The notes beneath the pieces are model-generated. The model saw only the letters and a program-made list of their open reading frames with translations, had not been told where the DNA came from and did not search any database. Shown here in pieces: positions 34,626-52,750 of a stretch of DNA of 64,000 bases. Numbering within the stretch: the stretch's first letter is position 1; each line of letters starts with the position of its first letter. This stretch comes from Halorubrum trapanicum (GTDB lineage Archaea > Halobacteriota > Halobacteria > Halobacteriales > Haloferacaceae). The stretch spans positions 2,170,001 to 2,234,000 of the forward strand of contig NZ_AP017569.1 in assembly GCF_002355655.1 (NCBI RefSeq). The letters are read 5' to 3'. Made by a program: the position numbers and the translations under genes.

Positions 34626-36494
34626 GTGTGGTCGCGCGCTCGGACTCGTCTGGTCTTCGTCTCTCTCGTGGTCGTCCTCGCCGGGACCGCGGGCCTCGTC
34701 CCGTCGGCCGGTGGCGTGGCGCCCGCTTCCGAACACCGTCCGACGGGCGTCATCGGTTCCGGCGACTCTCCACAGACCGACCCGGCGCCGCTCCCCGAGT
34801 ACGGCATCGAGACGATCGCCTACTGCGACGAGGTCCGGGACACGGACGGAGACGGAAACGCCAAGTGTCTCGGCCGCGGGGACGCGTTCGACGCGGACTC
34901 GCCGTTCCACCCGTACCTCGTTCTCACGAACGTCAGCGAGAGTCACACGATACGGTGGCACGTCTCGACCCCGTCGGACCAGTACACGGTATCGTCCACC
35001 ATCGAGCCCGGCGACACCGTCGTCTCCTACAGTTCGATCGGCATCGACGGCACCGGCGAAGTGGAGGTTCGACTCACGATCGACGGCCGCGACAGGTCCT
35101 TGGACAGCCTCTACGTCGGCGACGCGCCGACGGCGACGTTCACGAACACGCCGACGACGCCGGAGCCGGGCGACACGGTCCGGTTCGACGCGTCGAACTC
35201 GTCCGGCGAGAGCGTGAACTTGGACTACGCCTGGGACCTCGACGGGGACGGCGCGACCGACGCGACCGGAGAGCGCGTGACGACCTCATTCTCGGAGGGT
35301 GGCCGTCACCGGAACGTCACGCTCAGGGTGACCGACAGGTACGGGCTCTCCGACAGCGTGTCCGAACTCGTGTACGTCAACATCCCTCCGGTCGCGAACT
35401 TCACGGCGTCGAGCGACCGCATCCAACAGGGGCGGTCGGTTCAGTTCGTCGCGTCGGGGCGCGACCCGGACGGGCGGATCGAGTCGTTCGAGTGGCGCTT
35501 CGGCTCGAACCGGACCGTCGACGCGAGCGGCCGGACGGTCGAGACGATTCCGACCGATAGCGGCCGGTTCACCGTCTCGCTCACCGCCGTCGACGAGAGG
35601 GGGGCTGACGCGACCGTCACGAGGACGTTCGCCGTGCGGGCCGACTCGGACGGTGACGGGCTCGTCGACGAGCGGGAACGGGAACTCGGAACGGATCCGA
35701 CGGCCGCGGACACGGATGGTGACGGGCTCCACGACGGCCGCGAGGTCGAGCTGGGGGCCGACCCGACGGCAGCGGATACGGACGATGACGGACTCAGCGA
35801 TGGGCGAGAGGTCGAGCTGGGAGCCGACCCGACCGTGGCGGACACGGACGGCGACGGACTCGACGACGCTCGCGAGGCCGAGATCGGGACGGATCCGGCG
35901 GCGGCGGACACGGACGGCGACGGGCTCGACGACGCACGCGAGGTCGAACTTGGAACGGACCCGACGGCGGCCGATACGGACGGCGACGGGCTCGGTGACA
36001 GACGGGAGGTCGAACTAGGTTCCGACCCGACCGCGGCGGACACGGACGGCGACGGGCTCGACGACGCGCGGGAAGTCGAACTAGGTTCCGACCCGACCGC
36101 GGCGGACACGGACGGCGACGGGCTCGATGACGCGCGCGAGGTCGAACTCGGAACCGACCCGGCGGCGGCGGATACGGACGGCGACGGGCTCGACGACGCC
36201 CGCGAAATCGAACTCGGAACGGACCCGAGGGCCGCCGACACGGACGACGACCGGATCGAAGACGGGCGCGAGGTTCGGCGAGACCTCGATCCGCTCGACG
36301 CCGACATGGACGACGACGGCGTCCTCGACGGAGAGGAACTCGAACGGGGCAGCAGTCCGCGCGATGCGGACACGGACGACGACCTGTTCGCCGACCGGAT
36401 CGACCCGTTCCCGTCGCTGGTCTGGTTCCCGCTCGGTCTGATACAGCTCCTCGCCACCGCGGCGTTGTACGTCGGTGCGATCCGATTCCGGTGA
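34626..36494 (+). CDS. Secreted, membrane-anchored PKD and calcium-repeat protein
   Basis: A 622-residue surface protein. A signal peptide (residues 1-30, LVFVSLVVVLAGTAGLVP) is followed by an N-terminal domain, two PKD-like Ig folds (around 170-255 and 255-340; DYAWDLDGDGATD is in the first), then eleven 22-residue DxDxDGxxD calcium-binding repeats and a partial twelfth, and a C-terminal membrane helix (LGLIQLLATAALYVGAI). It likely stands rigidly off the cell surface. Its C-terminus resembles that of the lipoprotein at 51591, at the other end of the island. The start is GTG at 34626. Confidence 0.85.
   Translation: MWSRARTRLVFVSLVVVLAGTAGLVPSAGGVAPASEHRPTGVIGSGDSPQTDPAPLPEYGIETIAYCDEVRDTDGDGNAKCLGRGDAFDADSPFHPYLVLTNVSESHTIRWHVSTPSDQYTVSSTIEPGDTVVSYSSIGIDGTGEVEVRLTIDGRDRSLDSLYVGDAPTATFTNTPTTPEPGDTVRFDASNSSGESVNLDYAWDLDGDGATDATGERVTTSFSEGGRHRNVTLRVTDRYGLSDSVSELVYVNIPPVANFTASSDRIQQGRSVQFVASGRDPDGRIESFEWRFGSNRTVDASGRTVETIPTDSGRFTVSLTAVDERGADATVTRTFAVRADSDGDGLVDERERELGTDPTAADTDGDGLHDGREVELGADPTAADTDDDGLSDGREVELGADPTVADTDGDGLDDAREAEIGTDPAAADTDGDGLDDAREVELGTDPTAADTDGDGLGDRREVELGSDPTAADTDGDGLDDAREVELGSDPTAADTDGDGLDDAREVELGTDPAAADTDGDGLDDAREIELGTDPRAADTDDDRIEDGREVRRDLDPLDADMDDDGVLDGEELERGSSPRDADTDDDLFADRIDPFPSLVWFPLGLIQLLATAALYVGAIRFR
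35643..36368 (+). repeat. Eleven tandem 66-bp coding repeats
   Basis: Eleven in-frame 66-base units encode the 22-residue thrombospondin type-3-like consensus DTDGDGLDDAREVELGTDPT plus two Ala. Units 6 and 7 are almost identical in DNA, which suggests recent unequal exchange; the first and the last two are more diverged. Copy number is probably variable between strains. Confidence 0.9.
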
Positions 36495-37613: not shown

Positions 37614-38222
37614 CTAATCCTCGCGCCGGATCGACGTCGATCCGCTGTCGGTCGTTCCAGAGTCAGTCGTTCTGGAAGTCACGCCGCTGTCGGTCGTTCC
37701 GGAGTCGGTCGCTTCGGAGTCAGTCGTTCCGGAGGTCACGCCGCTGTCGGTCGTTTCGGTGGTCGAACGGTCGTTCGAGGCCGCTTCCGTCGCCTCGATG
37801 TTCTCGATGTCGCCCTCGATGGGGTTCTCGGCGGAACACCACGGGCAGACGACTGGGTTCGTGTTCCCGTCCCAACAGGCGATGTTGTCGCAGTCCGCAC
37901 AGACGAACAGGCCGGTGTTCGAGCAGTGCGGGCACCCCTCGTATTCCGGCGGGAACTCGAACGGACCGGACACCTGTGCGGTGCCGGACGACCCGCCGCC
38001 TCCGTCGCCGCCGGCCGTCGGTATCGACGTGCTCGTGGCCGCCCACGCGTTGCCCCGCCGCTCGAATCGGATCGTAAACGGGTCTTCCGAGTACATACAC
38101 CGCGCCGAGGCGCGGACGACGCCCGAGGAGGCGTCGCCCGCGTCCGTCTGCCCGGTCCCCTCGTCGCTGATCTCCTCGACGATGTCCGCGGCCGTGTCGA
38201 TGAGTCCCATCGTGTAGCCCAT
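37614..38222 (-). CDS. TerY-C-like zinc-binding protein with Ser/Thr/Asp-rich tail
   Basis: A 202-residue protein. Residues 88-131 hold seven cysteines in a compact pattern (C97/C100, C108/C111, C116, C126/C129: GCPHC...VCADC...CPWC), resembling the TerY-C metal-binding domain seen in tellurium-resistance-linked ternary systems. The N-terminal 65 residues form a separate small domain (VVRASARCMYSEDPFTIRF). The tail from about 145 is a low-complexity TTDSG-type repeat. In TerY systems this domain accompanies a vWA protein; here the vWA gene is at 49856 in the same island. The assignment is by motif and context. Confidence 0.65.
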   Translation of the reverse strand: MGYTMGLIDTAADIVEEISDEGTGQTDAGDASSGVVRASARCMYSEDPFTIRFERRGNAWAATSTSIPTAGGDGGGGSSGTAQVSGPFEFPPEYEGCPHCSNTGLFVCADCDNIACWDGNTNPVVCPWCSAENPIEGDIENIEATEAASNDRSTTETTDSGVTSGTTDSEATDSGTTDSGVTSRTTDSGTTDSGSTSIRRED

Positions 38223-38325: not shown

Positions 38326-39939
38326 TCACTCCCCGGAGTCCGTTCTGTCGCGGTAGGTCTCGCGATAGGCGCGCGAGCCGCGGATCTCGTCCAGTCGCCG
38401 GACGGTCTCCACGGAGATCCGCTCCGCTCGCTGCCGGAGCCGCTCGCGGAGTTCGTCGCTGACGGGTCCGTCGAGCCGTTCGCACGCCTCCTCGAAGGCG
38501 ACCTCGCTCAGTCGACGCATAACCGTCCTGACCTCTTCGTCGTCGACGTGAGCCGCGTCGACGTTCCGGGCCGCCCCGGGCTCGGCACCCCGTTCGTCTC
38601 CGCCGGTTACGAGCCCGCTCACCCTATCGATCAGGCGATCACTCTCGGCCTCCTCTTCGTCGGCGAGGCTGGCGTCCGGGTTGGCGGCGTCGACGAGCGT
38701 CTCGGCGGCGCGCTCTCCCACGACGGCTTCGAACGTGGCGATGGTCGTCCAGTAGTCCTCGACGAACGCACTCCACAGGTCGTGGTAGAACTCGAGTTGC
38801 GGCCGGTCGATGCCGCTCGCGTGATCCTCGTCGAAGCGGCCGCGGAAGGCGTCCAGCGACGTCTCGAACTCGTCTCTGTCCGCGGCCGCCTCGAACGCCG
38901 GGAGGAGGCGTTTGCGGTGTCGCTCGACCAACTCGCGTAGCTCCTCCTCGTATGTCGGGAGGTCTCCCCACGTCAGCGACCCGTCCGCCGCGGCCGCTCG
39001 GACGGTCTCGACGAGCTCCGAGACGTCGTACGGCTCCCCCGATTCGCCCCCGACGACGTCGAAGTGATAGGGGTCGCCCTGGTCGTCCACTCGCGAGACG
39101 AACCGCACGTTCGAGAGGGTCCCGCTGACCAGTCGCGCCATCCTGTCGACGCCATCGATCGATACTCTGAGCGGGTCAGTCCCGCGACGATACCGTTCCC
39201 AGAACTGCGCGACGAACTCGGCGTCGGCGTCGGAGATCGCGTCGGTCCGCTCCGCTGGCGGCGCGTTCGGACTCTCGCCCGGACTCCCGCTGTCGCCGGT
39301 CTCGTCGGCCTCGACGGAGTCCGCGGCCGCGTCGGCGGAAGGAGATTCCGGGGCACCGTCGTCTCCCCGCCCGCGTTCCTCCGCCGCACGGTTCGGGACC
39401 GCGTCGTCGGGGCCTCCCTCGCCGGCGCGGTCGGTCGCGTCCGCGCCCGGAGTCGATTCGCCGGGCCGGTCACGGTCCGATCCGGGCGTCCCCGCCCGGT
39501 TCCTCCCGGATTCCGCGTGCGGATCCGCTCCCGGGCTGCCGGCGGTGGCTCCCGGGCCGCCGTTGTCGGCCCGGACCGAGACGGTGACGGTCGATTCAAT
39601 GGACTGCTGTTTCTCCGTGATCTGCTGGCTCCGCTCGAACAACTCGTTGACCAGATCCTTGACCGCGACGTCGCGGAGGTTATCGAGCGGCGTCGCGTAC
39701 AGGTCGAAGAAGCACTCTCCCGACCTGACGGAGTCCCACTCGACGAGGCGACCGAAGACGAAGGTCCGGTCGTCGAGGGCGTCGAAAAAGTACCCTTCGC
39801 TCCGATACAGCGCCATGTCTGCGCCGTCGACGAGGTCGACGATCGCCTGTTCTGCGGCTTCGTTTCGTCCGAGCTTCGTCCCGGCGTGATGCCCCTGAAA
39901 GTCGTACAGTCCGTGGCGGAACTCGATGTCCTGATACAT
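38326..39939 (-). CDS. Unknown island protein paired with the GTPase
   Basis: A 537-residue protein I cannot place. Residues 1-115 form a globular domain (MYQDIEFRHGLYDFQGHHAG, ALDDRTFVFGRLVEWD), 120-235 are disordered (Pro, Gly, Asp rich) and 235-537 are mainly helical (EFVAQFWERYRRGTDPL, ELRELVERHRKRLLPAF). It starts six bases after the GTPase stop, so the two are coexpressed and probably interact. The N-terminal domain looks like the effector-binding or adaptor modules that accompany GTPases in conflict systems, but that is inference. Confidence 0.65.
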   Translation of the reverse strand: MYQDIEFRHGLYDFQGHHAGTKLGRNEAAEQAIVDLVDGADMALYRSEGYFFDALDDRTFVFGRLVEWDSVRSGECFFDLYATPLDNLRDVAVKDLVNELFERSQQITEKQQSIESTVTVSVRADNGGPGATAGSPGADPHAESGRNRAGTPGSDRDRPGESTPGADATDRAGEGGPDDAVPNRAAEERGRGDDGAPESPSADAAADSVEADETGDSGSPGESPNAPPAERTDAISDADAEFVAQFWERYRRGTDPLRVSIDGVDRMARLVSGTLSNVRFVSRVDDQGDPYHFDVVGGESGEPYDVSELVETVRAAAADGSLTWGDLPTYEEELRELVERHRKRLLPAFEAAADRDEFETSLDAFRGRFDEDHASGIDRPQLEFYHDLWSAFVEDYWTTIATFEAVVGERAAETLVDAANPDASLADEEEAESDRLIDRVSGLVTGGDERGAEPGAARNVDAAHVDDEEVRTVMRRLSEVAFEEACERLDGPVSDELRERLRQRAERISVETVRRLDEIRGSRAYRETYRDRTDSGE

Positions 39940-39945
39940 GGGTCG

Positions 39946-40920
39946 TTACGTGGTGTTTTTGAGCCAGCGGCCGACGTTTTCGAACCCCTTGAGGACGACT
40001 TTCCCCTGTGAGTGTTCGATCTCGTCACGGTTCCCCTCCGGAACGGAGACGCCGAACAGGTCCATGCTCTTGTCTCGCGCCTCGCTGACGAGTTCGAGGA
40101 CGTCGTCGCCTTTGTTCCCCGGGACCTGTCGATCGATCTCCTTGACCAGGTCGTCGTCGAAGTACCGCGTGTTGACGCTCCCCCGTCCGAGGAGACTGAT
40201 CTTGTAGTCGGTGGGGTCGTAATCCAGCATATCCGTCGCGGTGAACAGCAGCAGCCCCGTCTTGTCGTCGGCGTCGGCCAGCCGCAACAGCTCGGCGTCG
40301 ATGATGCCGTCGATGTCGTCGCGGAACATCTTCTTGTAGAGGTTATAGAGGAATATCACCCGGTCGCTCCGGAGGTAGTGGTAGAGGTACGCCCACTCCC
40401 ACTCCTCGTTTTTTATCGCCTTCGTGTCGTCGTTTATCCGCTCTCTGATGGCCCCGCGCTGCGGCTTGGTTCCGGTCGACTGGTATTTCTCACGAACCTC
40501 GTCTTCGTCGTAGTTCCCGTTTCGAAGCCGCTGTACCGCGGCCTCCTGTGCCTCTCCGGGAATGTCCATCGCCGCGACGGTGATCGTCTTCGCCATCGAC
40601 TGGTCGGCGTTGAGGTTGAACTCGACGATGTAGGTGTCGCGGCGGTTGGTCTGTTCGGGGTATCGGTAGGAGCTCCGCATGCGTTCGACCACCTCGTCTT
40701 CGAACAGTCCCCGGTCGCCGTACGTCACGCTGTAGTTCCCGACGAGGTCGTCCGTCGAGACGGCGTTGCTGATCACGTCTCGCCAAGAACTCGATCCGAC
40801 GGCGCTCGACCGTTTCGACTGTTTTATTTTGATCGCCATGGCGCCGAGGAAGGTCGACTTCCCGCCGCGTTGCCCCGCCATCAACATCACTTCGTCGGGG
40901 TTTTCGCTCACAGTCCCCAC
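39946..40920 (-). CDS. P-loop GTPase-like protein of the island
   Basis: A 324-residue NTPase. Walker A is GQRGGKST at residues 16-23, a switch II-like DIPG at 120-123 (AAMDIPGEAQ) follows, and TATD at 228-231 (LLLFTATDML) sits where the base-recognition motif (N/T)KxD is expected. These three in order point to a GTPase rather than an ABC or AAA ATPase. The GG in the P-loop is like the distant GTPases of NTP-dependent conflict systems. Its start overlaps the end of the membrane gene at 40908 by 13 bases, and the partner gene follows directly. Confidence 0.75.
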   Translation of the reverse strand: MGTVSENPDEVMLMAGQRGGKSTFLGAMAIKIKQSKRSSAVGSSSWRDVISNAVSTDDLVGNYSVTYGDRGLFEDEVVERMRSSYRYPEQTNRRDTYIVEFNLNADQSMAKTITVAAMDIPGEAQEAAVQRLRNGNYDEDEVREKYQSTGTKPQRGAIRERINDDTKAIKNEEWEWAYLYHYLRSDRVIFLYNLYKKMFRDDIDGIIDAELLRLADADDKTGLLLFTATDMLDYDPTDYKISLLGRGSVNTRYFDDDLVKEIDRQVPGNKGDDVLELVSEARDKSMDLFGVSVPEGNRDEIEHSQGKVVLKGFENVGRWLKNTT

Positions 40921-41459
40921 CCCTGTGAGCCCGCGCTACCCGACGTCGCTTTCCGGTACTCCGTGCGGAGGGCGTTCAGGAGAAGCCCGACCATGACCGT
41001 CGTGAACACGGGCGGCAATATAAATAGGAGGTCGTCGGTCTCCAGGTACGCTCGGCCCATTATCCAGACGGTGTAGGCGTACATCTCGGCGATGAGGAAC
41101 GCGACGGCTCCGAGGAAGTGGGTACTCTTTCCCGTGAAGAATCGGAAGTACGCGACGCTCCCGAACAGGACGGTCGCGCCGATCATCCCGTTGAGGAGGA
41201 TCCGAACCGGCGAGACCGCCACGGTGATGGAGACGGCGAGGAAGAAGAATATCGCCGTCGCGCGTCCCTGTGGGGTGTCAGCCTGGAGAAAGAGGACAGG
41301 CATCGTCCCGATGAGCACGTGCGCGATGGAGTAGTGTAACTCGATGAGATCGGCGGAGAAGATCGTGGGAAGCATACCGCGGTACATCGTCGTACTCACA
41401 CCGATGAGGGCGCCGAAGACGACGATGAGTCCCACGTTGATCAACTCGTCTTTGTTCAT
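40908..41459 (-). CDS. Island membrane protein, first gene of the GTPase operon
   Basis: A 183-residue protein with five to six helices (GLIVVFGALIGVSTTMY, GMIGATVLFGSVAYF, and others). The ATG at 41459 (MNKDELINVG) is preferred over a longer form. A TATA-like caattatg lies about 30 bases upstream. The motif TPQGRAT in a cytoplasmic loop and the C-terminal LRTEY match TAQGRLV and VRTEL in the membrane protein at 51020, so they are likely paralogues. It overlaps the GTPase gene by 13 bases. The function is unknown. Confidence 0.65.
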   Translation of the reverse strand: MNKDELINVGLIVVFGALIGVSTTMYRGMLPTIFSADLIELHYSIAHVLIGTMPVLFLQADTPQGRATAIFFFLAVSITVAVSPVRILLNGMIGATVLFGSVAYFRFFTGKSTHFLGAVAFLIAEMYAYTVWIMGRAYLETDDLLFILPPVFTTVMVGLLLNALRTEYRKATSGSAGSQGWGL

Positions 41460-41543
41460 ACAGTTCCGTCGTAACCTCCGAACATAATTGCTTTGCCAAG
41501 TCTCTCGGTCGGCGACTTCGAGAGACACACTCTCCACAGTGAA

Positions 41544-42779
41544 CTACCCCACCCTACCGGTCGGGCTGACGCCCTCGCGCTTGAGGGTGGGGCTTCCTGT
41601 TTCCACGACGCGCTTTGCATCCACAACCGAGGACACAGGGAGCGCAGTCTCCACAGGCGTTGATTCGGAGCGTCCCGCTCCTAACCGCTTCTTCACACCG
41701 CGAGAAAGAATATTCCACGCCGCATTCGCGTCTCTGTCGGCCTCGAACCCACACGCCGGGCAGGAGTGTTCGCGCACCCACAACGGTTTCTCGGTCGAAA
41801 CGCCGCAGGACGCACACTCTTTCGTCGTTCCGCGCGGATTCACAGCAACGAAGTGCGTTCCTTCGCGTTCGCACTTGTATTTGAGCATCCGCAGGAACGT
41901 CCCCCACGCCGCACCTGCCCGGTTCCGCGAGTTGCCCGGTAGTTCGACCAACCCCTTCGCGTCCAAGTCCTCGACGGCCACCAAGTCGTACTCCCGAGCG
42001 TAGTAGTTCGAGAGCTTGTGAAGGAAGTCGCGGCGCTTGTTCTTCAACTCGGCGTGGCGTTCTGCCACAACCCGACGCTGTTTCTCCCAATTGTCCGACC
42101 CGTGCTGTTTCCGCGAGAGGTCGCGCTGTGCGCGTTCCAAACGTTCGCGTTCGTTGGACAGGTCGAGGGATTCGACGGCGGTTCCGTCGGTGTCGTGAGC
42201 GTACTTGAGAATCCCCACGTCGATACCGACGCAGTTCTCGGGATTCTCCGGCTTCTCCGGCGGGTCGTCGGGCGTCTCGATGCCGAGAATGGCGTACCAC
42301 TTCCCGGTAGGTTCTTGCTTGACCGTGACGGTCTTAATGTCAGCGTCGTCGGGGAGGTCGCGGTGGAAGGTGAGGGGGATTTCTCCGAGTTTTGAGAGCC
42401 ACAGTCGCGTCCGACCGCCCGTGTTCTTGAGCTTGAAGCCGGATTGACTGTAGGTGAAACTGCGGTACTCGCCCGGTGCCTTCCACTTGAGCGTCCCGAC
42501 GCGGTAGCCCTTCTCTTTGCGCTCTCGTAGTGTCGAGAGGTTATCGTACAGCCGTTGTACGACCTTCTGTAGTACCTTCGAGTGAACGCTTTTCAGGTCG
42601 CTCCACCACTTCTTGAGACTCGGCAGGAGCTTCTGCTCAGAGTACGCCGAGGTGTCGTCGGTGCGGTTGAGTCGGTGGAGAAAGTGGTTGTAGACCTGTC
42701 TACAGGTATCGACAGTCCACGCTAACTGTTCTTCGAGAGCGTCGGACGGTCGGAGTCGATACCTGTAGTTGTAGTTCAC
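41544..42779 (-). CDS. tnpB: TnpB RNA-guided nuclease of the island insertion element
   Basis: A 411-residue TnpB of a different subfamily from the one at 13463. The catalytic set is intact: D187 (GIDVG), E270 (VAVEDLDAKG), zinc ribbon C322-C325 and C340-C343, D350 (DRDANAAWN). It starts with GTG overlapping the stop of an upstream 39-residue ribbon-helix-helix gene, and its last codons run into the right-end hairpin of the element, where the guide RNA should arise. No TnpA is present. Confidence 0.94.
   Translation of the reverse strand: MNYNYRYRLRPSDALEEQLAWTVDTCRQVYNHFLHRLNRTDDTSAYSEQKLLPSLKKWWSDLKSVHSKVLQKVVQRLYDNLSTLRERKEKGYRVGTLKWKAPGEYRSFTYSQSGFKLKNTGGRTRLWLSKLGEIPLTFHRDLPDDADIKTVTVKQEPTGKWYAILGIETPDDPPEKPENPENCVGIDVGILKYAHDTDGTAVESLDLSNERERLERAQRDLSRKQHGSDNWEKQRRVVAERHAELKNKRRDFLHKLSNYYAREYDLVAVEDLDAKGLVELPGNSRNRAGAAWGTFLRMLKYKCEREGTHFVAVNPRGTTKECASCGVSTEKPLWVREHSCPACGFEADRDANAAWNILSRGVKKRLGAGRSESTPVETALPVSSVVDAKRVVETGSPTLKREGVSPTGRVG
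41547..41592. repeat. Right-end hairpin of the TnpB element
   Basis: CCCCACCCT at 41547-41555 pairs with AGGGTGGGG at 41584-41592, enclosing a loop with a small GGGC/GCCC stem. This matches the subterminal palindrome expected at an IS200/IS605 right end and overlaps the last codons of tnpB. Confidence 0.85.
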
Positions 42780-43079: not shown

Positions 43080-45260
43080 TCAGCGGTCTTCGTCGCGCGC
43101 TCTCGAATCGGGAGTGTCCCCTTCGGTCCGGGCCTCGTCCGCCGAGGTCCGTTCGGTCGACGACTCACCGCGTGGACGCCCCTCGGTCGATCCCGATTCG
43201 GCCGTGGACTCCGGCGGTTCGTCGTCGGTCGATTCGGCATCTTCGGTGGTTTCCCCCTCGCGCTCGGCGGTACTCGTTTCGGATTCGTCGGCGGTCGCTT
43301 CGATGTCCTCTGCGGACTGCTCGTCTGTCGTCTCCGGTTCGCCCTTGCTGACGATGACGTCGGCCGTCTGTTCGACGAAGTCGCCGATGCGGTATCCCGG
43401 CTTGCGGAGTTCCAACACCGTTCCGTCGGGCTGTTCGGAGGGATGAGTATCCCAGACTGTGTGTTCCCCGAGGTCCTTCTCGTCGCCGGGTTCGGGTGCT
43501 ATCGGTTCGACGCCGAGTCGGCGCATACCGCCGGTGAACTCCTTGAGGAGGTTCTCCACGTCGGATGGGTCGAGGGTGGCGTCCGCCTGAGCCGTGTGCC
43601 AGAGATTGTACCGGACGCTCATGATCCGCCCCAGAATCGACCGCGGCGAGAGGTCCTCGATGGGGTCGCCGTCGGTCTCCGCGCGAGTCGCGAGCGTCGC
43701 GTCGTCCGCGGCGGACGTCTCGATCTCCGACGGGTCTGCTTCGAGGCGCGTGAGCCGCGGCCCCGTTTCCGTCGGTGAGTCGAGAGAGGGGGTCGCGTCG
43801 CCGTCGGACTGGATCGACGGGGTTACCTCGATGCCGCCCTCCTCGTCGGAGCGAGCCGTCACGGACAGCGTGACGCGCCCCTCGCCGGCCTGCCGCGGCG
43901 GGATGCCGGCTATCTCGTACGACCCCTCCGCCGTGACTTCGCCGGAACCCCGGTGTCTGCTCGCCACCGTCACGCTGCCTCGCGTCTGGTCGTCCCGCGT
44001 CGTCTTGAGGGTCACCTCCCGGGAACTACCGACGGGGACGGATCCCGGTACGACCGTCTCGAAGGTCGTGCCCTCCCCGGTCGGGACGAGCACGCCGACG
44101 TCCCTGTCGAGGGTGTCCGATCGAACCGGCGACTCGCCGGTCTTCCGAAGCTGGTTGGCGAGCAGCGCCGCCCCCCGAACCGGGGCCGTTTCCCGCCCGC
44201 CGAGTCGAGGCTCGCTCAGCGGTCGGTCGAGGAAGCCGGAAACGGCGTTCGACACCGGGATCGGGTCGACTCCCGGCCCGGCGACCAACACTCTGTCCAC
44301 GTCCGACCGGCCGACGTCGGCGGTGTCGAAGAGGTCCCGGAGCCGCGCGATGACCGCCTTCTCGACGGGCTCGATCGCCTCGTACGCGTCGGACATGTCC
44401 ACGTCGACGTCGACGCCCAACGTGCGCCCGTCGTCGGCCGTCAGGCCGGGCACCTCGTCGGCGGCGATCGAGCCGTCGGTGTCGTTCGTGACAGCCTCAA
44501 GGGCGTCGCCGGTCGCTGCGCGGAGGTGTTCGATCGAGTTCTCGTCGTAGGTCACGCGGCGGTTCTCCTCGCGGGCGGTCCGCTCGATGGCCCACTCCGC
44601 GAGCGACTCCTCCATCGCGTCGCGGCCGATGCCCGCCTCGCTGACCCGCGACACCACGCGGTAGGTCGCCTCGTCGGGGTCGACGCGGACCAGCGCCGCG
44701 TCGAACCAGTGGGAGCCGATGTCGACGACGACCAACAGCTGCGGCTCCGAGATGGCGGGGAACTCGGCGGCGGCGACGGCCACCGGGGCTCTGACGACGG
44801 CGCCGACATCGATCCCGGCCGCTTCGAGCGCACGGGAGACGGTGGCGCGGTCCTCGGCGTCGTAGACCCCGGGAACCGAGACCACGGCGTCCGGGGGCAG
44901 TTCCCCGTTCAGGCCTTCGGTTTCAAGCGCCGACGGCGCGCTCTCTCGCCACCCGTCGATCAGGTCGGCGAACAGCGATTCCACCTCGAGTTCGAACCGA
45001 GCGGTGTCTCCCGAGAGGTACTCCGGTCGCCCGTCTCCGTACTGCGGGAGGACGGGTATCCGCCGGTTCGGCTCCGGCTCGAGGCTTGGCGGGCGGGCCC
45101 GGACGCCGTCCTCGGTCGCGTGTAGCTCCGGGGGCGAGCGCGGCTCGCCGGTCGGTCCCGCGAGCAGCTCTGCTTCCCGCCCGTCGCTGAGCGCGCCGGC
45201 GATACCCGTCGCTCGAAAGTCGATCCCGAGTCCGATGGGAGTGGAGTTCGTATCTGTCAT
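43080..45260 (-). CDS. Hsp70-like ATPase fused to a GrpE-like domain
   Basis: A 726-residue protein. Residues 8-370 are an actin-like ATPase of Hsp70 type: phosphate-1 GLGIDFRATG (10-19, lacking the usual GTTNS), phosphate-2 VVVDIGSHWFDAAL (177-190) and adenosine motif VLVAGPGVDPIP (324-335). Residues 387-475 are a beta-sandwich like the Hsp70 substrate domain (GVLVPTGEGTTFETVVPGS). Residues 540-640 match GrpE, helix then wing: MRRLGVEPIAPEPG, the histidine in LGEHTVW, GTVLELRKPGYRIGDFVEQ and ADVIVSKG. A 85-residue acidic tail ends it. GrpE is the Hsp70 nucleotide-exchange factor and is normally a separate protein. The gene follows dnaK by 54 bases. Confidence 0.8.
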   Translation of the reverse strand: MTDTNSTPIGLGIDFRATGIAGALSDGREAELLAGPTGEPRSPPELHATEDGVRARPPSLEPEPNRRIPVLPQYGDGRPEYLSGDTARFELEVESLFADLIDGWRESAPSALETEGLNGELPPDAVVSVPGVYDAEDRATVSRALEAAGIDVGAVVRAPVAVAAAEFPAISEPQLLVVVDIGSHWFDAALVRVDPDEATYRVVSRVSEAGIGRDAMEESLAEWAIERTAREENRRVTYDENSIEHLRAATGDALEAVTNDTDGSIAADEVPGLTADDGRTLGVDVDVDMSDAYEAIEPVEKAVIARLRDLFDTADVGRSDVDRVLVAGPGVDPIPVSNAVSGFLDRPLSEPRLGGRETAPVRGAALLANQLRKTGESPVRSDTLDRDVGVLVPTGEGTTFETVVPGSVPVGSSREVTLKTTRDDQTRGSVTVASRHRGSGEVTAEGSYEIAGIPPRQAGEGRVTLSVTARSDEEGGIEVTPSIQSDGDATPSLDSPTETGPRLTRLEADPSEIETSAADDATLATRAETDGDPIEDLSPRSILGRIMSVRYNLWHTAQADATLDPSDVENLLKEFTGGMRRLGVEPIAPEPGDEKDLGEHTVWDTHPSEQPDGTVLELRKPGYRIGDFVEQTADVIVSKGEPETTDEQSAEDIEATADESETSTAEREGETTEDAESTDDEPPESTAESGSTEGRPRGESSTERTSADEARTEGDTPDSRARDEDR

Positions 45261-45314: not shown

Positions 45315-46820
45315 TCAGTCTCTCGTGACCGAATCGTCGTGCGTCTCCTCGCTCCGCTGGATATGGCCTTCAATCTCCTTCTCGGTGAGACCGATCTCCA
45401 GCGTCGTTTCAGCCTTCCGACCGGTGTCGAGGTTCGTCGCCTCGGCGTGGAGTTTCCCCTCTTCGTCGACGGTGAACGTCACTTCGAACTCGGGGTCGGA
45501 CCCCTCGTCGAGGTTCTTCAGTTCGAACTCCCCGAGCTTGTCGTTCTCTTCTGCGAGCGCCTTGCCGCCCTCCAGGATCTCGATGGTGATCTTCGGTGAC
45601 TGCTTGTCGATCTTGCGGAACCCGCGCTTCGACTCGGAGGCCTTGACCGGGGTCTGCTCCGACAGGATCATTTCGAACGTCTCCTTGTCGTTGTCGGGAT
45701 CGACCGTTTTCAGCCCGATATCTCTCGGAAGCACAATACTTCCACCACCGCCCCCCTGCGGTTCAAGTTCGGTCTGAATGGCAGCCCCCTCCGCGACGAC
45801 GTAGTCCTGATCGACTCCCTTCGACGCCTCCATCCCGAAGTAGTCCTCCACGCGCTCCTGGACCTTGGGGATCCGAGTCGACCCGCCGACGAGCAGCAGT
45901 TCGTCAACGTCCTCTTTCGTGGCGTCGACCTTCTCGTGGTCGAACAGCGCGTCGACGTAGTCGAACGTCTCATCGACGAGGTGTTCGGTTATTTCGTCAA
46001 ACTCGTCCCGTGAGAGATCTATGTTGAACGTATCACCTGGGCCGACCATGGGGGAGATAGATCCGGACTCGGTCTGCGAGAGATCGTGTTTCAGATCGGT
46101 CACCTTCTCGTAGACGTCCGCCTTCATCGCGCTGTTGTCCTCCGGATCCGGGTGCCCCGCATCGATCATCTCGCCCCGAACGTGGTCGTACAGCTCGTCG
46201 TCGAAGTCCTCACCGCCGAGCCGCTGGCCGCCCTTGACTCCCTCGACCTCAAACTCACCGTCCGGCGTGACGTTCATCAGCGTCGCGTCGAACGTCCCAC
46301 CGCCCATGTCGTAGACGAAGACAGTGCCAGCGCCCGTGTCGCCGATCCCGTAGCGGAGACACGCGCTGGTCGGCTCGTTGAGAAGTTCGATATCTTCTTT
46401 GTCGAATTCCGCTATTTTGGCCGCGTTGAGGGTTGCGTTCCGCTCTTTCGGTCCAAAGTAGGCTGGAACGGTGACGACCATCTCCTCGACGTCCTCGCCC
46501 GTCGCCTCCTCGGCGTCAGCGACGAGTTTCTTGAGAATCTCCGCCGATATCGCCTCGGGACCCCACTCCTCGCCGTCGATATCGACGGCCCAGTCCTGGT
46601 CACCCATGTGTCGCTTGACGCGCGGGACGGTTCGGTCCGGTACCTCCATCTGGTTGCGTTTAGCGGTCGTGCCGACGATGACGCCCCCGTCGTCGGGGAA
46701 CTGAACGACCGACGGCGTCTTGCGCTCGCCGCGCTCGTTCTCCAGAATCTCGGGATCGCCGTTCTCGTCGAGTCTGGCGACGACGCTGTTCGTCGTGCCG
46801 AGGTCTACTCCGATTTGCAT
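45315..46820 (-). CDS. Lidless Hsp70 (DnaK-type) chaperone
   Basis: A 501-residue DnaK homologue with an intact ATPase: IGVDLGTTNS (3-12), VYDMGGGTFDATL (169-181) and LLVGGSTRIPKV (309-320). After the linker, GGGGGSIVLPRDIG replaces the hydrophobic DVLLLDVTPLS, and the substrate beta-domain spans 362-475. The helical lid of about 130 residues is missing; the protein stops 25 residues after the beta-domain. It is thus distinct from the housekeeping DnaK, which should be elsewhere with dnaJ and grpE. ATG at 46820 is chosen (MQIGVDLGTT). A TATA-like element lies upstream. Confidence 0.9.
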   Translation of the reverse strand: MQIGVDLGTTNSVVARLDENGDPEILENERGERKTPSVVQFPDDGGVIVGTTAKRNQMEVPDRTVPRVKRHMGDQDWAVDIDGEEWGPEAISAEILKKLVADAEEATGEDVEEMVVTVPAYFGPKERNATLNAAKIAEFDKEDIELLNEPTSACLRYGIGDTGAGTVFVYDMGGGTFDATLMNVTPDGEFEVEGVKGGQRLGGEDFDDELYDHVRGEMIDAGHPDPEDNSAMKADVYEKVTDLKHDLSQTESGSISPMVGPGDTFNIDLSRDEFDEITEHLVDETFDYVDALFDHEKVDATKEDVDELLLVGGSTRIPKVQERVEDYFGMEASKGVDQDYVVAEGAAIQTELEPQGGGGGSIVLPRDIGLKTVDPDNDKETFEMILSEQTPVKASESKRGFRKIDKQSPKITIEILEGGKALAEENDKLGEFELKNLDEGSDPEFEVTFTVDEEGKLHAEATNLDTGRKAETTLEIGLTEKEIEGHIQRSEETHDDSVTRD

Positions 46821-48811: not shown

Positions 48812-49765
48812 TCAGCTCTCTTCGACGCGGACCTTGACTTCGTCGTCTCTGTACTCGTGGTCGGAATCGGAACGCCGTGTCTTGCTCGCGAGGATTGTGT
48901 GGGTACCCGCCTCGTTGAATCGGACGGTATCGGTACCGTCGTCGCCGGTCTTCCCGACCCGCCGACGGTCTCCCGATCGCTGTAGGCCCACGCCGGGAAC
49001 GCCGTCGCCCGCGTGATCGGTAACCCGGACAGTCACCTCTTCACCGACCGAAATCGTATCCGGCGTCACGGAGATATGGAGCGGAACGACCGTGGTGTCG
49101 CCAACCTCGACGGGGCTGGGGCGTTTCTGGATCTCCTCGAACGCCTCGTTGATGGCCGCCCGAGCGGCGTATTCGTCCGGATACTCGTCCAACAGGCCGC
49201 GGACGAACCTTCGCACCTCGTCCTCAGTCGCTTCGCTTGAACTCTCCACGTCGTGTGAGTCGTCCGCGTCTTGGTCCTCCCCGGATGCCGAACGCGCTCT
49301 GACGGTGATTTCTACCTCGCCGTCTTTGTACTCGTGATCGGGATCGGGGTGCTGTATCTTGCTCGCAACCAGTGTGAAGAGCCCCCTGTCGTTGAATCGG
49401 ACGGTTTCGGTGCCGTCGTCACCGGTCTTCCCCATCCGGTAGCCGTCTTCGGCTCGCCGGAGTATCACGCCTGGAACTCCCTCGTCTGTATGATCAGTAA
49501 CCCGGACCGTCACCTCCTCGCCGACCGAAATCGTGTCAGGGGTCGCGGAAACGACGAGCGGGACGACCGTCGTGTCGCCCACTTTAAGCGGACTGGGCCG
49601 CTGCTGTATGTCCTCGTACGCCTCGTTGATCGCCGTTCGGGCCGCGTGGTCGTCCGAGTAATCGCCCAGGAGGCTGCGGGCGCGCTGATCCACCTCATCA
49701 TCGGTCGCGTCTTTCGACAGCCCGAGTACGTCGTACGGATCGTCGGCGTCGAGATCCGGATCCAT
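48812..49765 (-). CDS. Protein with two tandem J-like plus Ig-like modules
   Basis: A 317-residue protein built as J-like (8-56), Ig-like (60-157), J-like (167-215), Ig-like (219-316). The first J-like repeat keeps DPYDVLGLSKDATDDEV; the second has degenerated to SHDVESSSEATEDEV. The HPD positions read SDD and YPDE, so neither has the triad. The modules are close copies of the first module of the 46899 protein (RPSPVEVGDTTVVPL is shared), showing internal duplication. It is first in the minus-strand series and divergent from the vWA gene. The ATG at 49765 is chosen. Confidence 0.78.
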   Translation of the reverse strand: MDPDLDADDPYDVLGLSKDATDDEVDQRARSLLGDYSDDHAARTAINEAYEDIQQRPSPLKVGDTTVVPLVVSATPDTISVGEEVTVRVTDHTDEGVPGVILRRAEDGYRMGKTGDDGTETVRFNDRGLFTLVASKIQHPDPDHEYKDGEVEITVRARSASGEDQDADDSHDVESSSEATEDEVRRFVRGLLDEYPDEYAARAAINEAFEEIQKRPSPVEVGDTTVVPLHISVTPDTISVGEEVTVRVTDHAGDGVPGVGLQRSGDRRRVGKTGDDGTDTVRFNEAGTHTILASKTRRSDSDHEYRDDEVKVRVEES

Positions 49766-49798
49766 ACGGGTTGGTTGATATTCCTCCGCAGTTAACAA

Positions 49799-49821
49799 TT
49801 CCCCAGCTTCACCTCGGGGAA
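49799..49821. promoter_or_regulatory. Inverted repeat between divergent island promoters
   Basis: TTCCCC (49799-49804) and GGGGAA (49816-49821) form a six-base inverted repeat with an 11-base spacer, centred in the 90-base gap between the J/Ig gene and the vWA gene. It could be an operator serving both directions. Support is limited to symmetry and position. Confidence 0.3.
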
Positions 49822-49855
49822 ACAACTATTGAAATCGACGACAGACGAATTCGAT

Positions 49856-50983
49856 ATGAGTCACCGACTGTCCTACACCCTTTCCCGCGAGGAGCTCCCT
49901 AGAGACGGCGGAGAGACGGCTTGTCAGCTCCAGATCCACCCGGACGACACAGGTCGCGGCGAACTGCCGCTCCACGTCGTCTTCTGCGTCGATTCGAGCT
50001 ACTCCATGCGCGGGGGCGACATCGAGGCCGCAAAGCAGGGCGTCGAGTCGGCGGTCGAACACCTCTCGTCGGACGACCAGTTCGGCGTCGTCGAGTTCGA
50101 CGACGACGCTTCCATCGTCGCGGATCCCGTGGCGGGGAATCGGTACGGCCGCGTGAGTTCGTCCGTCGACGGTATTGAGGCCGACGGCAACACCAACATC
50201 ATGGACGGCCTCGAGAAGTCGCGGCAGCTTCTCGATAAGATGCGCGGCGGCGGCGGGTTCCTCTCCGGCGGCTCGACCGACGCGGTCGAGTGGATCCTGC
50301 TCATCAGCGACGGCCAGCCGAACCGGACCAACGAGTCGGCGTTCAAGCGCGCGCTCGACGGGCTCACAATGTCGACGGCCGAGAAACACGGTGCCGCGGC
50401 GGCGGACCTGAGCGACGAGGGCATCACGATTCACACCGCTGGCGTCGGGAGCGGCTACGATCCGGATGTCAACGAGGCGATCAGCGACGCCGCCGGCGGG
50501 ACGATGGAACACAAGAGCTCGGGACGGGGTATCGGCGACTTCTTCGAGGGCCAGATCCGCGACGCCCGGAGCGTCGTCGCGACGAACCCGACGCTCACGC
50601 TCCGCCCGGACAACGGCGCGTCCGTCGACAACGTGATGCAGGAGCTCCCGACGAAAATTAAAGACCCGAACGTCGAGCGGCGGGGCGGGGAGCTCGTCGT
50701 CGACGTCCCCGACCTGAGCGTCGACGACCCGCCGCAGTTCAGCTTCGACATCGACGTCCCCTCGGAGGCGAACCCGGTCGCCCACGCCGAACTCGACGTC
50801 GACGGCGACACCGCAACCGCCTCCATCGAGGTCGGATTCGCCTCCGCCGCGCTCGTCAAGGACGAGGTCAACGAGGACGTCTTGGAGAACCGGGACGCAA
50901 TCACCCGCTACGAGGACCGCAAGGACTCCATGTCGGCCGAACAGCGCGCCCAAGAGAAGTCGTCCGGGATCACGCGAGAGTAG
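49856..50983 (+). CDS. vWA-domain protein with complete MIDAS
   Basis: A 375-residue protein. Residues 38-220 form a von Willebrand A domain with all metal-site residues: D46, S48 and S50 (CVDSSYSMRGGD), T113 (GNTNIMDGL) and D152 (LLISDGQPN). Residues 225-340 are a beta-rich domain (NPTLTLRPDNGASVDNV), and the last 35 are charged. There is no signal peptide or membrane helix. vWA proteins organise complexes with ATPases; here the neighbours are Hsp70-type. The ATG at 49856 (MSHRLSYTLSREE) is preferred over one 27 bases upstream. It is divergent from the J/Ig series. Confidence 0.9.
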   Translation: MSHRLSYTLSREELPRDGGETACQLQIHPDDTGRGELPLHVVFCVDSSYSMRGGDIEAAKQGVESAVEHLSSDDQFGVVEFDDDASIVADPVAGNRYGRVSSSVDGIEADGNTNIMDGLEKSRQLLDKMRGGGGFLSGGSTDAVEWILLISDGQPNRTNESAFKRALDGLTMSTAEKHGAAAADLSDEGITIHTAGVGSGYDPDVNEAISDAAGGTMEHKSSGRGIGDFFEGQIRDARSVVATNPTLTLRPDNGASVDNVMQELPTKIKDPNVERRGGELVVDVPDLSVDDPPQFSFDIDVPSEANPVAHAELDVDGDTATASIEVGFASAALVKDEVNEDVLENRDAITRYEDRKDSMSAEQRAQEKSSGITRE

Positions 50984-51590: not shown

Positions 51591-52616
51591 TCACCACAGC
51601 TGATCGATCCACCGGCGCACCCGTCCGAGTCGGTCCGTCACCCGCGATCTGACCCGCCCACCGAGCGTCCGAAGCCGATCGATCTTGACGCCGAACCACC
51701 GTTGAACCCGTCCCCGGTACGGCACGGCGCCGAGATACAGCGCCGCAGCCAGAACGACGTGGAGGAGCCCCGTGGGGACGAACAGCGTCGTCGGCGCCGG
51801 ATCGATCCGGTCGCCGAACAGGTCGCCGTCGGTGTCCGGGTCGCGGGGATCGGTCCCCAGTCGGCGCTCGCGGGCCGTGGTTATGCCGTCGTCGTCGGGG
51901 TCGTGAAAGACCAGCACTTCCTGCGTGACCGCCTCGGTCGTGCCGCTCGCGTCCGTCACCTTGAGCGTCACGTCGCGGCGGCCGTCCGTCGCGTACGAGA
52001 CCGTCACCGTACGTCCGGTCCGATCGAACGTCCCGTCGCCGTCGATGTCCCACTCGTAGGACTCGATGGCGCACTGGGCCTCGCCGGTTCCCGCGGTCAG
52101 CGTCAGCGGCTCGCTTCGGTTCGGCTCCGCGGGCTCCTGCGTGAACGACGGTTCGAGCTCCGACTCGTCGGCGCTCGGCGGCTCGACGCTTATCGGTTCG
52201 CTCGTCCCGACGCTGACCGTCTCCGTGCCCAGGAACGTCGACCGCTTCGCGGTCGCGCGGAGTTCCACCGTAGTCCGCTCGCCGCCGAAGTCCGACGCGG
52301 ACAGCGCGATCTCCTCCTCGAACGCCCATCCCGAGAGGTCCTCGTACGTCCGGATCGTCGTGTACTCGCCGCCGTCGGTTCGGTACGAGAGATCGACCCA
52401 CGCGTCGCCGTCCGCCGGCGAGTCCCCGCCGATCCGGACGTTCGTCGCGAGCCGAATCGACTGGTGATACCCGTCGCAGTCGCGGTCGACCCCCTCGGCG
52501 ACCGTCACCGTCTGTCCCCTGGCCGGCGGCGATCCACCGCACCCCGCGAGAACGACGAGCACCGCCAGTCCGACCAACAGCACGGGCCGCGATCGAAGGT
52601 TGCGTCTCGCGCCCAT
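51591..52616 (-). CDS. Lipoprotein with PKD domain and C-terminal membrane helix
   Basis: A 341-residue exported protein. The lipobox LVVLAGC (residues 19-25) marks a lipoprotein. A beta-rich domain follows, then a PKD-like fold (YEWDIDGDGTFDRTGRTVTV), about one and a half calcium-binding repeats (DPDDDGITTARERRLGTDPRD, DTDGDLFGDRIDP), a membrane helix (TGLLHVVLAAALYLGAVPY) and a basic cytoplasmic tail of about 50 residues. The repeat-helix end is alike in sequence and order to that of the 34626 protein. The ATG at 52616 gives the lipoprotein start MGARRNLR. Confidence 0.82.
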   Translation of the reverse strand: MGARRNLRSRPVLLVGLAVLVVLAGCGGSPPARGQTVTVAEGVDRDCDGYHQSIRLATNVRIGGDSPADGDAWVDLSYRTDGGEYTTIRTYEDLSGWAFEEEIALSASDFGGERTTVELRATAKRSTFLGTETVSVGTSEPISVEPPSADESELEPSFTQEPAEPNRSEPLTLTAGTGEAQCAIESYEWDIDGDGTFDRTGRTVTVSYATDGRRDVTLKVTDASGTTEAVTQEVLVFHDPDDDGITTARERRLGTDPRDPDTDGDLFGDRIDPAPTTLFVPTGLLHVVLAAALYLGAVPYRGRVQRWFGVKIDRLRTLGGRVRSRVTDRLGRVRRWIDQLW

Positions 52617-52750
52617 CGATACCTGTTGAAAGACAACAGCGACGGCCGTTATAATGCTAGTGGACCGCGGCGATGCCCTCGAAAGCGCGGGCCGTCGTCG
52701 GTGAAGCGGCGGTCGCGAGCCGCGTCGTCCGCCGGTGTCTCGCGCGCGAC

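Follow-up and report, generated by a model that had tools for sequence, protein, structure and literature searches.

GrpE and Hsp70 are normally separate proteins. A gene of Halorubrum trapanicum that appears to join the two in one chain, directly downstream of a second Hsp70 gene, raises the question of what such a protein does and on which partner it acts. The gene is located in a stretch of 64,000 nucleotides (hereafter, the window; contig NZ_AP017569.1, positions 2,170,001 to 2,234,000). The features of the locus are listed in the table.

Table. Features of the fusion locus in the window, in order of position; domains of the fusion protein are given below the fusion gene.
Feature	Position in window	Strand	Basis
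TerY_C-type zinc ribbon protein adjoining the cassette	37614..38222	-	Pfam TerY_C, 37.1 bits
537-aa protein directly downstream of the GTPase, no known domain	38326..39939	-	Conserved in cassettes
P-loop GTPase (GQRGGKST, DIPGE, TATD)	39946..40920	-	Alignment; distribution
Predicted membrane protein	40908..41537	-	Conserved in cassettes
Pseudo-Hsp70-GrpE fusion protein, 726 aa, ATG start	43080..45260	-	ORF; Pfam HSP70 and GrpE; homologues
Acidic variable C-terminal tail, residues 643-726	43083..43334	-	Alignments; dN/dS
GrpE half-domain, residues ~539-640, at the position of the DnaK lid	43341..43646	-	PF01025; PDB profile match; shuffles; dN/dS
SBD-beta-like domain, residues ~380-490, not followed by an alpha-helical lid	43791..44123	-	DnaK alignment; Pfam HSP70 ends at 487
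Pseudo-nucleotide-binding domain, residues ~10-370	44151..45233	-	Motif alignment; boundaries from DnaK alignment
Lidless DnaK, ends after SBD-beta, presumed partner	45315..46820	-	Pfam HSP70, 355.9 bits; motifs
Protein with a J-like domain lacking HPD and with Ig-like/carboxypeptidase-regulatory repeats; uncertain start codon	46899..48770	-	Pfam DnaJ, 22.0 bits, below cut-off
Shorter second protein of the J-like/Ig-like kind, HPD absent	48812..49825	-	Pfam; HPD check
von Willebrand factor A (vWA) domain protein	49829..50983	+ (opposite strand)	VWA_2, 58.7 bits; conserved in cassettes

The predicted product comprises an Hsp70-like ATPase, a beta domain, a linker and a GrpE segment, in that order. 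The HSP70 model of Pfam (PF00012) matched residues 123-487 with 63.3 bits against a cut-off of 20.6, and alignment and Pfam analyses revealed that the alpha-helical lid is missing, SBD-beta being followed by the linker and the GrpE segment. The best PDB matches of the full-length AlphaFold model were Hsp70s, although this model, computed from an alignment of few rows, was of low confidence. The Pfam GrpE model (PF01025) was matched by residues 567-639 (model positions 93-165 of 165) with 29.6 bits, above the cut-off of 25.8. A profile built solely from seven stand-alone haloarchaeal GrpEs scored the same protein at 61.4 bits (2.8e-17), far above the 6.1 bits reached by the highest-scoring of 5000 shuffles of this GrpE segment. 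Both results confirm the original prediction of a natural Hsp70-GrpE fusion, with GrpE landmarks that had been placed near residues 540-640 and were located at residues ~539-640. The other cassette-type fusions listed scored 35-65 bits with the stand-alone-GrpE profile; the Pfam cut-off was also passed by the fusions of loci L033, L069 and L070, while that of L042 remained below it (16.7 bits). Conversely, a profile of the fused segments recovered canonical grpE in 351 of 391 haloarchaeal genomes and matched the solved GrpEs 4ani_A (3.6e-7), 1dkg_A (7.8e-6) and 8gb3_E (2.7e-5). When the whole genome was scanned in six frames with the GrpE model, only the fusion locus (32.4 bits) and one canonical grpE were found, and single-protein scans of viral contigs for GrpE and DnaK found no relative.

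The homology to GrpE covers the C-terminal half of that protein. The aligned region begins with the short bundle helices, where SVRYNLW of the fusion corresponds to TPVRNDLL of the cell's own GrpE, and extends through the beta-wing to VSKG. The long N-terminal helix, by which canonical GrpE dimerises, is absent, and the predicted GrpE domain thus stands only for the last bundle helices and the beta-wing. The structure-prediction check proposed for this segment speaks clearly neither for nor against the GrpE fold: the expected helix-helix-strand order was obtained, but with low confidence (mean pLDDT 47.6) from AlphaFold runs that used alignments of 3-5 rows, and a Foldseek search with this low-confidence model placed GrpE/GrpEL1 at PDB ranks 1, 2 and 4, with weak scores (E = 0.09 at best).

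Comparisons between Halorubrum relatives showed that dN/dS was lowest within the fusion in the GrpE segment (0.10-0.11), intermediate in the pseudo-Hsp70 domains (0.19-0.26) and highest in the linker (0.33-0.40) and the acidic tail (0.35-0.41), the latter having no counterpart in distant homologues according to the alignments. This pattern indicates that the fusion protein is maintained, its GrpE part most strictly. That the gene is a decaying pseudogene with a functionless product is scarcely credible, as the frame is open, dN/dS is below 0.26 in the folded domains and the fusion is preserved at about 26-30% identity; a hint of such decay comes from genome G360 (locus L068), where cassette frames are broken, perhaps by decay or by sequencing error.

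The Hsp70 part of the fusion had been described both as a complete actin-like ATPase and as a divergent one. Alignment with canonical DnaK contradicts the first description and agrees with the second: the equivalents of the catalytic K70, E171 and T199 and of the adenosine loop GGSTR are lost, and they are missing in all eight cassette-type fusions aligned. In the window, phosphate-1 reads GIDFRATG and phosphate-2 DIGSHWFD; across the cassette fusions, DLGGGTFD is replaced by DIGSHWFD, NIGSYWLN, DVGDRSAD or DIGASWGS. Judged from these motifs, the Hsp70 part is a pseudo-ATPase, predicted to be catalytically dead. The protein thus shares with DnaK/Hsp70 (PF00012) detectable ATPase and SBD-beta homology, and differs from it by the loss of the catalytic Lys, Glu and Thr and of the adenosine loop, and by a GrpE segment in place of a lid. 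In contrast, ATPase motifs are intact in at least one lidless DnaK at each locus examined, and dN/dS of the lidless DnaK of the window was 0.02. Genomes G424 and G422 each encode a pair of lidless DnaKs in tandem: the first is partly dead (K70 to M/R, T199 to R; L069:4986-6551 and L070:4637-6187), and the second is intact. In trees that examined an origin of the fusion by duplication of its neighbour, the lidless DnaKs formed one clade and the cassette fusions another, on long branches.

Since the fusion adjoins an Hsp70 with intact motifs, it is probably the dedicated recharging partner of that neighbour. The original prediction had placed a lidless DnaK just upstream, and its stop was indeed found at 45315, with a gap of 54 nt to the fusion gene; it had also named this DnaK as the likely partner in trans, which is strengthened by conservation of the DnaK-then-fusion pair in divergent haloarchaea. 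The pair is kept in four divergent haloarchaeal lineages, with fusion identity down to about 26%. Homologous loci were found in Halorubrum (L034/L036 and L037) and in genomes G066 (L033), G325 (L042), G360 (L068), G424 (L069) and G422 (L070), G066 belonging to a different family from Halorubrum and having a fusion of 27% identity. At every homologous locus a lidless DnaK precedes the fusion, encoded on the same strand, although in G360 that DnaK has frame breaks; the gaps are 21 nt in L033, 77 nt in L042 and 81 nt in both L069 and L070. In G066 the pair is kept, but the 20 kb read around it contain none of the other cassette genes, and the pair therefore looks like the minimal unit. In the G360 cassette, frame breaks occur in the DnaK, fusion and vWA genes, reflecting either decay or sequencing error.

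The genome also encodes a canonical DnaK (at about 855.8 kb) and a canonical GrpE (at 129.5 kb), so a fusion serving the housekeeping DnaK of the cell, and not that of the cassette, has to be considered. It is improbable, because a canonical GrpE is already there and because the fusion travels with the lidless DnaK in all intact cassette-type loci.

Single-gene Hsp70-GrpE proteins, in which Hsp70 is likewise followed by GrpE in one chain, offer a comparison for the death of the ATPase. A tblastn search against plasmids revealed such proteins in Halocatena salina and H. marina, where Hsp70 scored about 330 bits and GrpE 73-80 bits; in Halomicrobium plasmids it found a protein of 1158-1160 aa with SBD-beta (by inspection), Hsp70, GrpE and a Ser/Thr kinase. 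One of the latter is the 1158-aa WP_012807418.1 of Halomicrobium mukohataei plasmid pHmuk01, annotated 'GrpE' (L108:7596-11072), and a similar protein is encoded at L110:5596-9078. They differ from the cassette fusions in that their ATPase motifs (Halocatena L044 and L109; Halomicrobium L108 and L110) are largely preserved, apart from changes at E171 and in parts of other loops, in that the stretches read show no annotated lidless DnaK beside them, and, in Halomicrobium, by the added SBD-beta and Ser/Thr kinase. Retention of most ATPase motifs by fused Hsp70s that have no partner DnaK next to them is what would be expected if death of the ATPase depended on a partner; the comparison of motifs, in a small sample, fits an association of the dead ATPase with the possession of a partner DnaK. 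In these single-gene proteins, action of the GrpE segment in cis on its own Hsp70 domain is conceivable. For the cassette fusions such action is very improbable, as they are devoid of nucleotide-binding residues and nothing should remain to exchange. In GrpE trees, the cassette, Halocatena and Halomicrobium fusions did not fall into one well-supported clade. Downstream of the Hsp70-GrpE-kinase gene, the translation of L108:12034-12546 contains the repeated motif LQSHKGPSET / FNPTRVRLK, and this ORF resembles a CRISPR repeat array mistaken for coding sequence.

Whether the half-GrpE can exchange nucleotide at all is the point on which the preferred reading is most exposed. In the 1dkg complex, R183 of E. 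coli GrpE contacts DnaK. By alignment, the corresponding beta-wing position carries R or K in each of the seven stand-alone GrpEs of haloarchaea, but F, V or N in all cassette fusions. Exchange activity can therefore not be assumed, and with the dimerisation helix lost as well, DnaK binding by the half-GrpE may be altered or lost. Relative to GrpE (PF01025; 1dkg, 4ani, 8gb3), the likeness is thus one of sequence homology over the last bundle helices and the beta-wing, in a protein that is fused to a dead Hsp70 and has neither the long N-terminal helix nor the basic residue equivalent to R183. These two losses make a serious rival of the view that the segment is a docking or locking module that binds DnaK or the J-like/GTPase proteins without exchange, the fusion then being a scaffold or inhibitor. 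The dead ATPase speaks for this rival, as do the J-like partners, which are without HPD, so that several parts of the normal cycle are degenerate; so does the occurrence of a GrpE half on a FlaD/E domain in the genome of L033, which suggests a module movable as an adaptor. The partner DnaK, however, keeps the full set of ATPase motifs and would need exchange, and no other part of the fusion is as strongly constrained as the GrpE segment; mere docking is for these reasons rather unlikely. The FlaD/E protein itself (L043:1042-2112, minus strand, genome G066) combines a GrpE half (43.4 bits) with an archaellum FlaD/E domain (75.7 bits), and in the tree its GrpE part clusters, with 97% support, with that of the Hsp70-GrpE fusion encoded in G066.

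The DnaK-fusion pair belongs to a larger conserved cassette of GTPase, vWA and J-like genes, which the original prediction had missed. All homologous loci except that of G066 encode the GTPase, its neighbour frame of 400-700 aa, a membrane protein, a vWA protein and J-like/Ig-repeat proteins, and the TerY_C-type gene adjoins the cassette in L037 and L034 too. The GTPase profile marked only 4 of 391 sampled haloarchaeal genomes, so the cassette is rare; a class-wide scan for homologues with a narrow profile missed G360, which a broader profile found, and the prevalence figures are therefore lower bounds. The HPD check showed that this motif is missing from the J-like domains of the cassettes, so that the ATPase-stimulation step is either missing or supplied from elsewhere; in G325 a separate J protein bearing HPD is encoded close to the cassette. 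A second, stand-alone copy of the cassette-type GTPase is present in the genome of the window (C1:315221-316078, plus strand; L077:9219-10082), and a second cassette at this 315 kb copy was rejected, as the other cassette genes are absent there. In the window, a TnpB/OrfB-type IS605 gene (41544-42779, minus strand) has been inserted so that it separates the gene of the membrane protein from that of the fusion; the insertion is absent at the corresponding spot in L037. PKD proteins flank the cassette of the window (34626-36494, plus strand, with about nine thrombospondin-type-3 repeats, and 51591-52661, minus strand), and similar proteins are also encoded next to the L069 and L070 cassettes.

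The composition of this cassette recalls GTPase-centred conflict systems, which Kaur et al. (2020; PMC7159879) reported to occur widely among bacteria and also in a few archaea. HSP70 and GrpE genes are carried by about 14% of the systems of GAP1-N2 type, some of these with a second HSP70 without peptide-binding domain; a DnaJ domain fused to FNIII repeats is part of this theme, and vWA genes are reported in other GAP1-N2 themes (PMC7159879). Shared parts are the GTPase, Hsp70s, GrpE, a J-like domain on beta repeats, a membrane protein and vWA, whereas the present cassette is archaeal and joins Hsp70 and GrpE in one protein, the published text naming an HSP70 gene and a GrpE gene (PMC7159879). 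The cassette J-like proteins have a J-like domain below cut-off and Ig-like/regulatory repeats that Pfam did not call FNIII. The alignment of the cassette GTPases showed invariant G-x-x-G-x-K-S-T (A-G-x-x-G-x-K-S-T-F) and D-x-P-G-E columns, and thus a P-loop GTPase with a conserved Glu in Walker B, a feature of DO-GTPase type. The DO-GTPase model PF19993 gave no match at E <= 0.01 in the genome of the window, Pfam scans of the window and the homologous loci found no DO-GTPase, and hhalign of the cassette GTPase with one archaeal DO-GTPase2 sequence returned a probability of 0.1%; the likeness of the GTPase motifs may be convergence. The 537-aa neighbour of the GTPase, considered as a GAP1, matched no Pfam, NCBIfam or PADLOC model, and PADLOC defence models gave no match for the cassette. 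Since the DO-GTPase model was unmatched and no GAP1 domain was found, membership in the DO-GTPase/GAP1-N2 systems was rejected and the cassette is not filed under them; the two may be distantly related or analogous. By analogy, the parallel with the bacterial HSP70, GrpE and DnaJ-FNIII systems (PMC7159879) may lend support to the fusion as an exchange partner.

Taken as such a partner, the fusion would form with the adjacent lidless DnaK a divided chaperone, in which ATP would be hydrolysed by the lidless DnaK and exchange would be supplied by the GrpE half of its dead sibling, the beta-wing opening the nucleotide cleft of the lidless DnaK. The dead ATPase/beta-domain part would hold the two proteins together or, alternatively, dock the pair on the GTPase, vWA and J-like proteins of the cassette at the membrane. 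We give this reading, a dedicated nucleotide-exchange partner of the adjacent lidless DnaK whose dead Hsp70 holds the pair or docks cassette proteins, a probability of about 0.5. Within it, we infer physical pairing, exchange activity, membrane docking and a role of the cassette in signalling or defence.

The comparison with Hsp110 made in the original prediction applies as an analogy. Eukaryotic Hsp110/Sse1 are exchange factors derived from Hsp70, and the likeness lies in an Hsp70 relative that is proposed to exchange nucleotide on another Hsp70. Beyond this the comparison fails: Hsp110 binds ATP, uses its own ATPase domain as the exchange factor and is not known to have a GrpE domain, whereas the ATPase of the window fusion is degenerate and the exchange would be carried out by a GrpE-type domain. 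Membership of the fusion in the Hsp110 family was rejected, since it has neither nucleotide motifs nor an extended SBD, and carries a GrpE segment instead.

The fusion is built from known families. No description of an Hsp70-GrpE fusion architecture was found in the open literature searched, although a prior description may exist; public records name the related single-gene fusions only 'GrpE' or 'nucleotide exchange factor GrpE' (WP_282190240.1, WP_264556753.1, WP_012807418.1 and WP_153555030.1). As a tentative proposal, held at somewhat under even odds, the locus may encode a prokaryotic split chaperone resembling the Hsp70-Hsp110 pair, in which a lidless, ATP-using DnaK and a dead, GrpE-bearing sibling would be dedicated to a membrane-linked GTPase/vWA/J-like cassette, in signalling or immunity, and not to general folding. 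The locus itself links a set of archaeal chaperones to a GTPase/vWA cassette that resembles conflict systems of bacteria, and provides a prokaryotic comparison for how exchange factors of the Hsp110 type can evolve. Covalent fusion of GrpE to a dead Hsp70 sibling, kept beside an Hsp70 with intact motifs, also lets one ask, in a natural setting, how far the components of the Hsp70 cycle can be separated, as the lid, the long GrpE helix, the HPD motif and a second ATPase all appear to be dispensable here.
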